Source: Gammaproteobacteria bacterium HGW-Gammaproteobacteria-2 (GTDB lineage Bacteria > Pseudomonadota > Gammaproteobacteria > Xanthomonadales > Xanthomonadaceae). Taken from it: a DNA stretch of 64,000 nucleotides. Both the position numbers and the translations under genes were made by a program. The notes below the pieces were generated by a model. It saw only the letters and a list, made by a program, of their open reading frames with translations, was not told the origin of the DNA and made no database searches. The stretch lies in the NCBI GenBank assembly GCA_002840015.1, contig PGZE01000024.1:1-64000 (forward strand), in the 5' to 3' direction. Positions 23,811 through 57,333 of the stretch are shown in pieces (the first letter of the stretch is position 1; each line of letters opens with the position of its first letter).

Positions 23811-23894
23811 GTACTCTCGCCAAGATCGCCAAGCGCACCAAGGAAAGCAACAGACCAATGCGTTTCTTGGCGTTCTTGGCGTCTTGGCGAGGGT
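23811..23894. repeat. GCCAAG-type inverted repeat, gene-less copy
   Basis: TACTCTCGCCAAGATCGCCAAG... to GGAAAGC (23812-23848) faces its inverted form GCGTTTCTTGGCGTTCTTGG... to CGAGGGT (23860-23894), leaving an 11-nt centre. The same repeat flanks a gene remnant at 40748-41026. The rest of 23757-24006 shows no gene. Confidence 0.65.
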
Positions 23895-25800: not shown

Positions 25801-26117
25801 GGGGCGCCAAGAGCGCAAAGGAAAGCACGAAGCCGAGCCAGCAGAAGGGCGGGTAGCGCATGGCGAAACCCGACAGCCGCCCACCCAACGCGGTTATTTG
25901 TGTCTTTGCGCGTCCTTTGCGGACCCGAGTGCTTTTCCCGAGTCCCGGATTCGCAGGCTGCTGAGGCTACGTCTGCCAGCGTTCGCCGCGATGAGTTCTC
26001 CCTCACCGTCATTTCCGTGAAAGCTGGAATGACGAGTGAGCAGGGGCTTGCCACGCCCCAGCCACGCTACGCTATGGGCTCTCCTTTGCGAACTTGGCGT
26101 CCTTTGCGGACCATCTG
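25801..26117. repeat. GCCAAG-type repeat region without intact gene
   Basis: GGCGCCAAGAGCGCAAAGGAAAGC (25803-25826) faces CTCCTTTGCGAACTTGGCGTCC (26081-26102), with a further copy CTTTGCGCGTCCTTTGCGGAC at 25903-25923. A second hairpin family, CGTCATTTCC...GGAATGACG, lies at 26008-26034. No gene was seen in 25754-26180; it looks like degenerate repeat DNA. Confidence 0.5.
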
Positions 26118-39335: not shown

Positions 39336-40685
39336 ATGAGCATGTTCACTGAGGCGCAAGCCAAGGCCATCCTGGATAAGGTCATCAAGCTGTCGGTAGC
39401 TGACGAGTGCATCGCGACGCTTAACGGTTCCACTTCCGGCAATGTGCGCTTTGCCCTGAACAACGTGTCCACCAGCGGTGTCGTCAGCAACACCGATCTG
39501 GCGGTACAGGTTGCCTTTGGCAAGCGCGTCGGCACTGCCACCATCAACGCCTTCGACGATGTCTCGCTGGAACGCGTGGTGCGTCGCGCCGAAGAGCTGG
39601 CCAAGCTGGCGCCGGAGAACCCGGAGTTTGTCCCTGCCATCGACAAGCAAACCTACAGCGCAACACCGACGTTTGTGCAGAGCACCGCTGACATCGACCC
39701 CACGTATCGCGCCAAAGTGGCGAGCGATTCGATTGCGCCGTGCAAGGCAGAAAATCTCGTTGCAGCCGGTTTCCTCGAAGATGGTCAGGGCTTTACCGCC
39801 ATTGCCAACAGCAAAGGCAACTTCGGCTACCAGAAAACCACCGATCTGGATTACACCTGTACGGTGCGCACTGAAGACGGCACCGGCTCGGGCTGGGTGG
39901 CGCGCAACCTCGCTGATTCGACGCAGTTCAATGCCAGCAACGAAATCCGTACCGCCATCGCCAAAGCCAAAGGCTCGGCCAACGCCAAGGCGCTGGAACC
40001 TGGCAAATACACGGTTATTCTGGAACCCGCTGCGACCGCAGGACTGCTGCTGTTCATGCTGTTCGGTTTTGATGCTCGCCAAGCCGACGAAGGCCGCAGC
40101 TTTCTATCAAAAAAGGGCGGTGGCAATCGCCTCGGCGCACAGGTTTTCGACTCTCGCATCAACGCCTTTTCCGACCCTTCGCACGCTGGCCTTGCCACCC
40201 TGCCATGGGATGAGGACGGCCTGCCGCGCCAGAAACTGGCCATCATCGAAAACGGCGTGGTCAAACACCTCAACTACTCGCGTTTCTGGGCACAAAAGCA
40301 GGGCAAGCCGGTTGTTGCACAGCCGGGCAACGTGATCATGAGCGGTGGCGACAAATCCACCGAAGAACTGGTCGCATCGACCCGCCGCGGCATCCTGGTC
40401 ACGCGCACCTGGTATATCCGCATGGTTGACCCACAAACCGTATTGCTCACCGGCCTCACCCGCGATGGCACTTTTTACATTGAGGACGGCGAGATCAAGC
40501 ACCCGATCAAGAACTTCCGCTTCAACGAATCGCCGGTCATCATGCTCAACAATGTTGAAGAACTGGGCAAGACCGAGCGGGTCAGCAGTGGTGCAGGTGT
40601 TGGTGGCGGCCCTGGCCTTGCGATGATGGTGCCGGCAATGAAGGTGCGCGACTTTACCTTCACCTCACTGTCGGATGCGGTGTGA
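39336..40685 (+). CDS. TldE/PmbA-like partner subunit
   Basis: A 449-residue TldD/PmbA-family protein lacking the HExxxH zinc motif, the mark of the TldE (PmbA) half of the heterodimer. VQVAFGKRVGTATINAFDD (about 67-85), FGYQKTTDLDYTCTVRTEDGTGSGW and GVGGGPGLAMMVP at the C-terminus are recognisable. The TTTGGAGAA site at 39321-39329 sets the ATG at 39336. No signal peptide is present, in contrast to the ancestral Tat signal of its TldD neighbour. The pair would form a peptidase that trims small or unfolded peptides. Confidence 0.8.
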   Translation: MSMFTEAQAKAILDKVIKLSVADECIATLNGSTSGNVRFALNNVSTSGVVSNTDLAVQVAFGKRVGTATINAFDDVSLERVVRRAEELAKLAPENPEFVPAIDKQTYSATPTFVQSTADIDPTYRAKVASDSIAPCKAENLVAAGFLEDGQGFTAIANSKGNFGYQKTTDLDYTCTVRTEDGTGSGWVARNLADSTQFNASNEIRTAIAKAKGSANAKALEPGKYTVILEPAATAGLLLFMLFGFDARQADEGRSFLSKKGGGNRLGAQVFDSRINAFSDPSHAGLATLPWDEDGLPRQKLAIIENGVVKHLNYSRFWAQKQGKPVVAQPGNVIMSGGDKSTEELVASTRRGILVTRTWYIRMVDPQTVLLTGLTRDGTFYIEDGEIKHPIKNFRFNESPVIMLNNVEELGKTERVSSGAGVGGGPGLAMMVPAMKVRDFTFTSLSDAV

Positions 40686-40747
40686 TTGCAAGCCCATCAA
40701 AGCATTAGTGCTTGCCACCCAGAGGCGGCTTTTGGTCCGCCCCTGGG

Positions 40748-41026
40748 TACTCTCGCCAGGACGCCAAGAGCGCCAAGGAAAGCAAAAGGATGGGCAAGAC
40801 GAAATCGGCAGGCCGGTTGTCGACGCCGCCGTGTCAACCCAGCGGGCGCGGCCCCGGTCTCGGAGACGGTCCACGAGGTGCTGGCACATCAACTGGTTTG
40901 TGCCGTGCCGGCACACGGTTTGAGTATCTACGCAATTAGCGAGGCGATCATGAAGAACAAGATCACTCAAACTGTCAATCGCCTTCACCAAAGATTGATG
41001 GCTTCCTTGGCGCCTTGGCGAGAGCA
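40748..41026. repeat. GCCAAG-type inverted repeats around a gene remnant
   Basis: Left end GTACTCTCGCCAGGACGCCA... to GGAAAGC (40748-40784) and right end GCTTCCTTGGCGCC... to GAGAGCA (41001-41026) are inverted copies. They belong to the repeat family seen at 23811-23894. They enclose 216 nt with traces of coding sequence. Confidence 0.65.
40790..40995 (+). pseudogene. GxxExxY-family gene remnant
   Basis: DEIGRPVVDAAV is read from 40798 to 40833. After a frame change at about 40833, VNPAGAAPVSETVHEVLAHQL (40833-40895) continues. Together they follow the N-terminal half of GxxExxY proteins (EIGxxVVDAAxxVH..LGPG.LExVYExxLAHEL). The C-terminal half is not recognisable. The remnant sits inside the inverted repeat pair. 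Confidence 0.5.
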
Positions 41027-41068
41027 CATGCCTGACAATGGACCTGTTCACATGCCCGGAAACAGCCC

Positions 41069-41779
41069 ATGGATCGCAAGCAATTTCTGAAATTGATGAC
41101 GGGCGCTGCCGGAACTCTGCTGGCAGCGCCGTTTTCCTCAAAACAGGCACGCGCGGCACCAGCGGAATACGACTTCTGGTTTACCCGGCTGATGTACGAA
41201 TCAGGTGATTGGGATGTCGATGAGCGCATGCCATCGAACCTGATCGACGCGCTGCTGCAATACACGCATCTGCGGGTCGATCCGAAGGAGCAGATCATTG
41301 CCCTGGCCGACCCGCGCATGCTGAACGCGCCGATGTGCTACCTGGCCGGTCACAAGCTGGTCGAGTTCAATGCCGATGAACGGCGCAATTTTGAGCGCTA
41401 CGTGCGTAACGGTGGATTTGTTTTTGTCGACGACTGCAACCACGACATTGATGGCCTGTTCGCACGTTCGTTCGAAACCCAGATGGCCGACATATTCGGT
41501 GCCGATGCCTTGCAAAAGCTGCCGAAACGGCATCCGATCTATCGCAGTTTTTTTGCCTTTGATGGCCCGCCGACCACCAGCTTCGAGCTCAATGGCTGGG
41601 GCGATGATCTGGTGCATGATTACCTCAAGGGCATCCATGTCGATGGCCGCCTTGGCGTGCTGTACAGCAACAAAGACTACGGCTGCGAATGGGATTACGA
41701 CTGGCGCAACAAGCGCTGGCTGGCCGAGGACAACACCCGCTTTGCCGTCAATATCGTCATGTATGCGCTGAGCGCATGA
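41069..41779 (+). CDS. DUF4159 protein with Tat-like signal
   Basis: A 236-residue protein. The N-terminus MDRKQFLKLMTGAAGTLLAA resembles a twin-arginine signal (RK variant). The mature part is DUF4159: the YDFWFTRLMYESGDWDVD start, the LADPRML block, and the FERYVRNGGFVFVDDCNHD strand (about 110-128), which resembles a GATase/ThuA-like fold. The role is unknown in the family. It opens the second half of the cluster; moxR follows after 16 nt. Confidence 0.8.
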   Translation: MDRKQFLKLMTGAAGTLLAAPFSSKQARAAPAEYDFWFTRLMYESGDWDVDERMPSNLIDALLQYTHLRVDPKEQIIALADPRMLNAPMCYLAGHKLVEFNADERRNFERYVRNGGFVFVDDCNHDIDGLFARSFETQMADIFGADALQKLPKRHPIYRSFFAFDGPPTTSFELNGWGDDLVHDYLKGIHVDGRLGVLYSNKDYGCEWDYDWRNKRWLAEDNTRFAVNIVMYALSA

Positions 41780-55711: not shown

Positions 55712-56143
55712 TTACTCCGGGACTCGGGTAGCATCGCCCGCGACGCGGGACTCGGGACTGGGGACTCGGGACTCGGAAAGCAACTTGCGCCGAAGCGCCT
55801 GATGCAGCCGTTGAAGCATACGGCCCACGCGATCGCACATCGCCAATGCCTCGTCGATTGGTGTCGATGCACCCAAGCCCAATTCGCGCGAAAGCAACAG
55901 CTGCGTCTGCAGTTCTGCGGTTGATCCAAGCGCGACGGCAACAAAACGCGCGTAATCCCTAGTGGACATGCGAGCATTGCCCTCGGCGATATTCGATGGG
56001 ATCGAGACTGCCGAACGCTGGATCTGTGACGTCAAGCCGTAACGCTCATCACGCGGAAATCCCGCAGTGATCTCGTAGACACTTTTTGCCAGTCCCATTG
56101 CCAATTGCCAGACCTCTAACTCGCGAAAGTGCGACGCGCTCAT
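55712..56143 (-). CDS. four-helix bundle protein (S23/IVP type) inserted in carAB
   Basis: A 143-residue protein of the 23S rRNA-intervening-sequence/S23 family. [50 protein letters not shown] (about 29-59) and [20 protein letters not shown] are canonical. Such proteins occur in rRNA intervening sequences, near retroelements and as orphans; their function is not known. Here the gene lies between carA and carB, with an ATGA overlap with carA and 3 nt before carB. Its last 20 residues ([21 protein letters not shown]) are encoded by the left flanking repeat, so the repeat supplied the tail. Confidence 0.88.
55747..55778. repeat. left terminal inverted repeat of the four-helix element
   Basis: 32 nt made of GGGACTCG units (GGGACTCGGGACTGGGGACT, then CGGGACTCGGAA). 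It matches the right repeat (56181-56212) in inverted orientation at 31 of 32 positions. A further GGGACTCGGG lies at 55730-55739. Confidence 0.8.
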
Positions 56144-57333
56144 CGCGCCTCCCCCGAGTCCCCGTGCCCCGCTTTTGCTCTTCCGAGTCCCGAGTCACCA
56201 GTCCCGAGTCCCGATGACCGAATTGCTTCCACAAACCGATCAAACAGCCCCGCCACATCATGCGGGCCGGGGCTGGCTTCCGGGTGCCCCTGGAAGCTGA
56301 AAGCCGGTGCGTCGACCAATTCGATACCTTGCAGCGAGCCGTCAAACAGCGAGCGATGGGTGGCGCGCACGTTGCCGGGCAAGCTGGCCTCATCCACCGC
56401 AAAACCGTGATTCTGGCTGGTGATCATCACCTGCCCGGAATCCAGATCGATCACCGGGTGGTTGGCACCGTGATGGCCGAACTTCATCTTCTCCGTGCGT
56501 GCGCCGGCTGCCAGCGCCAGCAGTTGATGACCAAGGCAGATGCCAAACAGCGGGATGCGCGCCGCGAGCAAGCTGCGAATGGCGGTGATCGCGTAAGCGC
56601 ACGGTTCCGGGTCGCCGGGGCCATTGGACAGGAACACGCCATCAGGACGCATCGCCAATACCGCTTCGGCGCTGGTTTGTGCCGGCACCACACTGATCCG
56701 GCAACCGCGGTCGGCGAGCATACGCAAGATATTGCGCTTGACGCCGAAATCGTAAGCCACCACGTGATATGCGGCTTGTGGCCTGGCGAAGGCGTTGGCG
56801 TCGAGATCGAACGATCCTTCGCTCCAGTTGTACGATTCGGCGGTAGTTACTTCGCGCGCCAAGTCCATGCCCTTGAGGCCGGCAAACTTGCGCGCGGTTT
56901 CGATCGCGTGCTCGGCATCCAGCACATCGCCAGCCACCAGGCACGCGCTCTGCGCGCCGCGATCACGCAGCAGCCGGGTCAGGCGACGGGTATCGATGTC
57001 GGAAATCGCGACCACATCGCGTGCCGCCAGCCATTCAGGCAGCGCAACCTGGCTGCGCCAATTGCTGGGCCGGCGTGGCACGTCGCGCACGATCAGACCC
57101 GATGCCCACACCTGGCTGGCTTCGTCATCATGCTCGGTGCAACCGGTATTGCCGATATGCGGATTGGTCAGGGTCACCAACTGCCGCGCATACGAGGGGT
57201 CGGTGAGGATTTCCTGATAACCGGTGGTTGCGGTGTTGAACACCACCTCACCCACCCGCGCACCGGACGCGCCTGCGGAAACGCCCTCGAAGATGGTGCC
57301 ATCTTCAAGGGCGAGGAATGCGGTTTGCTTCAC
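56140..57333 (-). CDS. carA: carbamoyl-phosphate synthase small subunit
   Basis: The 397-residue glutaminase subunit hydrolyses glutamine and passes ammonia to CarB. Start at GTG 57333 ([12 protein letters not shown]), with AAGGCGAG upstream. The amidotransferase triad is C in FGICLGHQ (about 265-272) with His and Glu in [10 protein letters not shown] (about 350-359). The family normally ends soon after LFDRFVEAI. Here a tail of about 27 residues ([12 protein letters not shown]...GEAR) is encoded by the right inverted repeat of the inserted element. Its stop overlaps the start of the four-helix gene. Confidence 0.94.
56181..56212. repeat. right terminal inverted repeat of the four-helix element
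   Basis: TTCCGAGTCCCGAGTCACCA then GTCCCGAGTCCC, the inverted match of 55747-55778 with a single mismatch at 56197. It lies inside the 3' end of carA. A further CCCCGAGTCCCCG is at 56153-56165. Confidence 0.8.

Follow-up and report, generated by a model that had tools for sequence, protein, structure and literature searches.

An internally deleted GxxExxY unit between inverted tandem-unit arms, a candidate derivative of a small nuclease-encoding mobile cassette

What kind of element leaves pieces of a small gene between two inverted repeats, inside a cluster of protein-coding genes? The question is raised by about 280 intergenic bases (40747-41033) in the 64,000-nucleotide stretch of DNA from Gammaproteobacteria bacterium HGW-Gammaproteobacteria-2 that was analysed here (contig PGZE01000024.1, positions 1 to 64,000; hereafter, the window). 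The original prediction, made from the sequence alone, saw at this place a decayed GxxExxY gene inside an inverted-repeat pair, one of a family of non-autonomous elements, inserted in a TldD/E-MoxR cluster. The location is as predicted: the unit lies between a TldD/E-type gene (PmbA_TldD_3rd, E=1.2e-43) on one side and, on the other, a DUF4159 gene, after which comes a MoxR-type AAA gene. The best reading of the evidence assembled below is that this internally deleted GxxExxY (TIGR04256/PF13366) unit is a dead derivative of a small mobile cassette in which a nuclease gene was formerly present.

Inverted-repeat detection and the alignment of copies placed the left arm at 40747-40775 (plus strand; iterated units ctcgccag-gacgccaag-agcgcca) and the inverted right arm at 40999-41027 (minus strand); the arms are 29 nt each, 79% complementary, and separated by 223 nt. 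Alignment to L011, a gene-bearing copy in the same genome, identified between them remnants of the gene start (40776-40882, plus strand, with an ATG at 40790) and of the gene end (40936-40998, plus strand; AIMKNKITQTVNRL). Identity to L011 is 77% across the 141 nt of left arm and gene start (E=9e-25) and 75% across the 108 nt of gene end and right arm (E=1e-17, in a small search space). The peptides on which the original prediction was built, EIGRPVVDAAV and SETVHEVLAHQL, are both present, in two forward frames, the former being followed by ETVHEVL in another frame. The middle of the gene is missing from the window copy: 225 nt of L011, within which the predicted catalytic residues fall, have no counterpart and are replaced by 53 unaligned nt (40883-40935, plus strand). 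The right arm has one iterated unit fewer than that of L011. It is the DNA alignment that bears out the decayed gene; a profile search of the two window ORFs, which had been expected to detect the remnant, gave no NCBIfam match at E up to 1.

Within the window, a 17-nt arm motif (up to three mismatches) is confined to this element and to a second copy at 23812-23894 (plus strand), and the reversed motif has no match. The second copy, originally noted at 23811 as lacking a gene, is indeed a shorter family member, with both arms, no gene remnant, and the right outer flank of the family. The outer GGCTC-type repeat that many other copies possess is not visible at the 40747-41033 unit; a short hairpin (CCCAGAGGCGG ... 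CCGCCCCTGGG) occupies 40718-40747, running into the left arm, where other copies have the outer repeat.

L011, on contig C93, is the only PF13366 gene found in the window genome and is flanked by the same arms as the window copy. Its 5' part matches TIGR04256 with 51.7 bits (cut-off 35; E=9.8e-14), and PF13366 is matched in two pieces, with 49.0 and 48.6 bits (cut-off 22). The reading frame is broken, the two halves being found separately, with stops in the second one. L011 sits in a larger unit with degenerate outer ends, discerned by eye, in which it is the sole candidate gene seen. When the 279 bases at 40748-41026 were used as the query against the genome, 24 places matched at E<=0.001, and 19 stretches were taken around such places, in addition to the two window places. 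At least 16 arm pairs were read, in 14 of the 19 stretches and at both window places; L024 and L026 have one arm only, and L027-L029, without an arm of this motif, are members of the CGCAAAG family described below. The number of units per arm differs among copies, and unequal amounts of the gene start and end are kept, which looks like the outcome of several internal deletions rather than one. Same-arm copies without an intact gene outnumber the gene in this genome, so that, as in MITE-type families, there are multicopy gene-less copies sharing the repeats of a gene-bearing parent. The genome search and copy alignment thus support the predicted multi-copy family of non-autonomous derivatives.

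The flanks of 14 copies were searched and compared in three congeners (G001-G003). For 12 of the 14, the element is missing between the same flanks in at least one congener; at several of these 12 sites, the congener has other DNA, of about 10 to 180 nt, and not an exact empty site. Part of the right arm of L018 is still covered in its alignment to G002, L022 yielded no unique flank in the congener comparison, and L015, L019, L023 and L025 are each shared with one congener at the same position. No clean empty site was found for the window copy, the comparison originally proposed: two congeners have unrelated intergenic DNA at this place, and in the third, a contig break intervenes. Intergenic regions of the congeners (L050, L051 and others) hold other short repeats, for example, of the CCCTCACCCCAACCCCTCTCCC type, where the window genome has its own elements.

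The same comparison bears on where the mobile unit ends. In gene orientation, the DNA absent from congeners continues past both arms in the 12 copies: for 28-204 bp on the upstream side, with seven copies at 124-153 bp, and for 40-138 bp on the downstream side. The cleanest copy in all three congeners, L017, has ends of the GGCTCCTC type that resemble the outer repeat, and its target site is probably duplicated (TTCAT exact; 6/8 at 8 bp, ACGTTCAT/ATATTCAT; alignment overlaps of 5, 6 and 9 nt). This imperfect duplication was seen in 1 of the 14 copies. The outer repeat itself (GGCTCnTCnGCAnnnGTGTGGGT, three mismatches allowed) was found at 27 places in four genomes, and the reversed pattern at 4. 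Eighteen of the 27 places were read, the remaining nine all being 3-mismatch matches; GCCAAG-type arms lie near 15 of the 18 (10 by motif scan, 5 by eye), at a distance of 127-131 bp from the outer repeat at four of these 15. In the bases read, arms are absent from L270 (1 mismatch) and L285 (3 mismatches), and L290 (C67:858-880) has the coordinates of the arm-bearing copy L023, with the locus cut at the contig end. Because L270 lacks arms in the bases read, the outer repeat may also occur alone. No transposase was seen between outer repeats at the 18 of 27 places read, by reading of draft assemblies. The absent DNA past the arms, together with the outer GGCTC-type repeats on many copies, indicates that the arms are internal to a larger unit in this family, and the arms were rejected as the ends of the mobile unit for copies with comparable flanks. 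Of the terminal inverted repeats initially proposed, the inverted pair stands, but in most copies its terminal position does not.

PF13366 genes were detected in 9 of 60 genomes of relatives and in 32 of 200 genomes of a phylum sample. For each gene, an inverted-repeat score was computed between its two flanks, with a threshold of 14. The order and phylum samples comprise 40 loci, of which 37 could be scored; 33 of these reach the threshold, compared with 17 of 111 mispaired flanks, a null that is raised because many loci share motifs. In a sample from a contig collection (52 loci, 50 scorable), 41 of 50 reach the threshold, compared with 15 of 350 control windows displaced on these contigs. 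The titles in this collection name Proteobacteria, Bacteroidetes, Chloroflexi, Acidobacteria, Planctomycetota, Spirochaetes and others; the scan used a tight alignment, which biases this sample toward proteins with GFLENVY-like motifs. Not every locus is independent, because three are duplicated between the samples (L030=L101, L031=L085, L032=L094) and many form syntenic groups. Intact genes without a detectable arm pair, named at the outset as evidence that would refute the prediction, are a minority, 9 of 50 (L091, L098, L109, L120, L123, L126, L131, L134 and L135), L134 and L135 being partial matches.

The expectation that intact GxxExxY genes are regularly flanked by arms therefore holds for inverted arms in general but not for the particular arm sequences of the window, which are lineage-specific. 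The arms read CTCGCCAAGACGCCAAG in the window genome; the corresponding sequences elsewhere are CCACAGATGAACACAGAT (Wenzhouxiangella), ACCGCAGAGTACGCAGAG (family f36 of the same phylum) and AGACATAAGAACAAAAGAACA (Bacteroides). Their common trait is an iterated architecture: when periods of 6-11 bp were compared, the best self-match was at 8, 9 or 10 bp in 65 of 69 arms. Three genes of genome G043 have three different arms, which indicates that arms go with the gene and not with the host. Similarity between arms is positively correlated with identity between proteins (rho 0.30, permutation p 0.001; 2261 non-syntenic of 2346 pairs), a modest correlation to which shared descent contributes. In a Bacteroides locus (L124:2850-3500), read by eye, a gene seems to be interrupted within its 5' end by the unit, and the similar sequence (PMHT) found on either side gives the impression that the gene start was formed anew downstream.

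Several units lie at junctions of biosynthetic operons. By DNA synteny, the carA-carB junction holds a GxxExxY unit in congener G003, in Thioalkalivibrio, in Thiohalomonas and in two Salinisphaera; Pfam searches confirmed carA for G003 and both genes for Thioalkalivibrio. Twelve aligned loci of one family occupy the trpD-trpC junction (Pfam-tested in L056), and a junction of the pyrB-pyrC type (OTCace beside a dihydroorotase-like amidohydrolase) is occupied in the Pfam-tested L055, with L062 and L065 similar in DNA. In the alignment of the 12 trpD-trpC loci, both arms are conserved blocks of intergenic DNA, and among the 10 loci with usable arms, the identity of left and right arms within a locus is 0.86, versus 0.70 for arms between species. 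An ATG at position 1456 of L056 overlaps the trpD stop (ATGA, if that ATG is used), and the frame continues through the arm. The unit gives the impression of vertical maintenance at carA-carB and trpD-trpC, something not required of a purely selfish transposon.

The protein encoded by intact units was modelled from 34 aligned sequences (pLDDT 91, pTM 0.84). Its best structural match, and the sole chain at Z >=8 in VIA-align, is the Cas4-family SSO0001 (Z 9.4, rmsd 3.6, 100 aligned); Foldseek likewise placed SSO0001 first (4ic1, E=2.1e-4), among 4 matches at E<=0.001. Lambda-type exonucleases are weaker structural matches. D68, E78, K80, Q92 and Y96 are invariant in all 34 aligned proteins, and these D...ExK and QxxxY residues are presumably the motifs of a Cas4/RecB-like PD-(D/E)XK nuclease. 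The GxxExxY protein accordingly models as a Cas4-like PD-(D/E)XK nuclease, and the invariance of the predicted catalytic residues suggests that nuclease activity has been kept. A weak Pfam match to Phage_endo_I (E 0.0097) and the lack of T7 endonuclease I among the best 50 VIA-align rows are uninformative either way. A role in anti-phage defence was considered and rejected, the one intact GxxExxY protein examined for it, from G003, having no PADLOC match at E<=1.

A unit with a comparable layout, encoding an unrelated protein, lies elsewhere in the window. An S23/four-helix-bundle ORF (TIGR02436, E=4.9e-33; family match at 55811-56125) occupies 55740-56219 on the minus strand, at the carA-carB junction, between inverted arms of GGGACTC units; the window genome has this unit at the junction, and not a GxxExxY unit. 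The carA frame of the window continues through the arm of the S23 unit and stops in an overlap with the start of the ORF. In congener G002, an S23 unit with GGGACCC units is found at carA-carB. Among S23 loci, 26 of 33 score at least 14, compared with 5 of 132 shifted windows, and the arm period is 7 in 25 of 26 arms. A single layout, with a different period in each case, is thus common to two unrelated proteins, whose units are found at the same junction in sister genomes.

Dispersed repeats of a further type, the CGCAAAG family, are present in these genomes. Two matches to its arm motif, with 3 and 1 mismatches, lie at 25906-26109 of the window on the minus strand, and four genomes each had 37 to 60 matches to a query containing CGCAAAG-family arms, a few of these matches flanking genes. 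The CGCAAAG elements L028, L029, L229, L233 and L236 have GGGACTC-type repeats on one or both sides, as if nested in arms that resemble those of the other class. Twelve copies of this family were queried in G002 and G003; few comparisons were interpretable, and the search for empty sites was mostly uninformative because other short repeats sit there in the congeners. One copy, L239, is absent from both congeners, with a hairpin repeat at its place.

We favor the interpretation that the window copy is the dead derivative of a widespread class of mobile cassettes driven by a self-encoded nuclease, and assign to it a probability of about 0.56. Since intact relatives with the same layout are present in many bacteria, the class of mobile elements is probably widespread, and it seems not to have been described. 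A complete cassette would comprise a single PD-(D/E)XK nuclease ORF (GxxExxY, about 125 aa) flanked by a pair of inverted arms, with some three tandem units per arm at a spacing of 8-10 bp. The nuclease may bind its own arms and cut or process DNA at the unit or at its target, and either transposition or break repair (intronless homing) would then copy the unit into intergenic sites and operon junctions. The window copy and similar derivatives could have been mobilized in trans before the source gene decayed; in the window genus, what spread would have been somewhat larger, in many cases bounded by outer terminal repeats of the GGCTC type. The cassette interpretation is supported by the co-occurrence of gene and arms in distant bacteria, the lineage-specific arms, the polymorphism among congeners, the gene-less copies and the conserved predicted catalytic residues. 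Against it stand the inserted DNA that runs past the arms, the target duplication in 1 of 14 copies, the other DNA found in congeners at several sites, the apparent vertical maintenance at carA-carB and trpD-trpC, and the 9 of 50 genes without a detectable arm pair.

A broader proposal, in which we place somewhat less than even confidence, is that there are two widespread classes of autonomous cassettes, each with one ORF between inverted tandem-unit arms: the GxxExxY nuclease with a period of 8-10 bp and the S23 four-helix bundle with a period of 7 bp. Each protein would read its own arms by their period, and both classes would invade junctions of core biosynthetic operons, where they would be rivals for shared sites (in this genus, carA-carB). 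Many dispersed repeats of the CGCAAAG and CACAGATGAA types would be their gene-less progeny.

The evidence on element ends can also be read in another way. The dispersed copies could be ordinary MITEs moved by an unrelated (DDE) transposase through the outer GGCTC-type repeats, the GxxExxY unit being a captured passenger and the window copy its fragment. The inserted DNA past the arms fits this scenario, as do the occurrence of GGCTCnTCnGCAnnnGTGTGGGT at 27 places (versus 4 for the reversed-pattern control) with arms near most of the places read (15 of 18), the armless outer repeat of L270, and the ends of L017, which resemble the outer repeat and have a likely duplication of 5-8 bp. We nevertheless consider it less likely, given that no transposase was seen between outer repeats in the bases read, while the GxxExxY gene of L011 does lie in such a unit, and that the window copy has no visible outer repeat. 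At trpD-trpC and carA-carB of other lineages, the arms abut the neighboring genes and leave no room for outer repeats, and the recurrence of the arm architecture around GxxExxY genes in other phyla would remain unexplained.

The operon junctions suggest another alternative: GxxExxY would be a host-adapted operonic gene, and the arms operators, bound for autoregulation or for control of the neighboring genes and hence conserved. Conservation at trpD-trpC (12 loci) and carA-carB (five loci in four genera), the possible ATGA overlap of trpD and the ORF at L056:1456, and the passage of the window carA frame through an S23-unit arm all fit. The downstream arm, however, is preserved as well as the upstream one, many dispersed copies have arms without a gene, and the gene is sparsely distributed (32 of 200 genomes in the phylum sample) and polymorphic among congeners, all of which makes this account improbable. 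Least plausible of all, and assigned a very small probability, is an RNA-level role, with the arms forming a stem as in 23S rRNA intervening sequences, from which RNase III would cut the unit out of transcripts. The layout does resemble that of S23-bearing intervening sequences as given in passages of PMC4990558, and a related S23 unit lies within the window. Arm mismatches, counted on the gene strand in 72 loci (including three duplicates), are symmetrical, with 75 G-U compatible changes versus 77 opposite transitions, and 190 transversions; this symmetry and the absence of an Rfam match at 40500-41300 (E<=1) disfavor the RNA stem.

No description of the association between GxxExxY genes and arms was found in the open-access literature, with most subscription papers outside this scope, and the arm strings tried occur in no open-access paper; in the portion of PMC8934634 consulted, the GxxExxY/PF13366 family terms are mentioned in passing. 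If the cassette interpretation is right, it gives a role to two families whose annotation goes no further than 'GxxExxY protein' or 'four helix bundle protein', and accounts for a type of dispersed repeat common in the genomes studied. Arm recognition would become directly testable through the period rule (8-10 bp versus 7 bp), and the operon-junction sites would be a natural system in which a tiny nuclease gene spreads without harm to essential operons.

Several known systems share parts of this picture. MITEs and other internal-deletion derivatives of bacterial insertion sequences are short gene-less copies that share their ends, inverted repeats, with a gene-bearing parent. The family in the window genome resembles them in its gene-less copies, its inverted repeats, and the likely target duplication of one copy, but the gene between the repeats is no known transposase, and the gene-flanking arms consist of tandem units and often lie inside outer repeats. 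REP/REPIN sequences, linked to the RAYT transposase (HUH/Y1), are short dispersed palindromes associated with a single small protein that processes DNA; the GxxExxY family likewise combines short dispersed palindromic repeats with one small protein, which, however, is a predicted PD-(D/E)XK and not an HUH/Y1 enzyme, and its gene is located between the arms. Free-standing homing endonucleases, with intronless homing, place a small nuclease gene at the same conserved-gene junction across hosts, as does the GxxExxY gene at carA-carB in four genera; unlike these, GxxExxY units have paired inverted arms and dispersed non-autonomous copies, and their target cleavage is putative.

The closest described relative found is the S23-bearing intervening sequence of 23S rRNA genes, for example, in Coxiella, where, according to passages of PMC4990558, a small ORF lies between inverted repeats that form a 28-bp stem. 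The same passages term these sequences selfish and give transposition as one hypothesis for their origin. The GxxExxY unit shares with them the arrangement of one small ORF between inverted repeats. It differs in encoding a predicted PD-(D/E)XK nuclease and not a four-helix bundle, in the placement of the window copy between two protein genes and not in an rRNA gene, and in arms built of 8-10 bp tandem units, which are complementary but show no RNA-pairing signature in their mismatches (75 versus 77).
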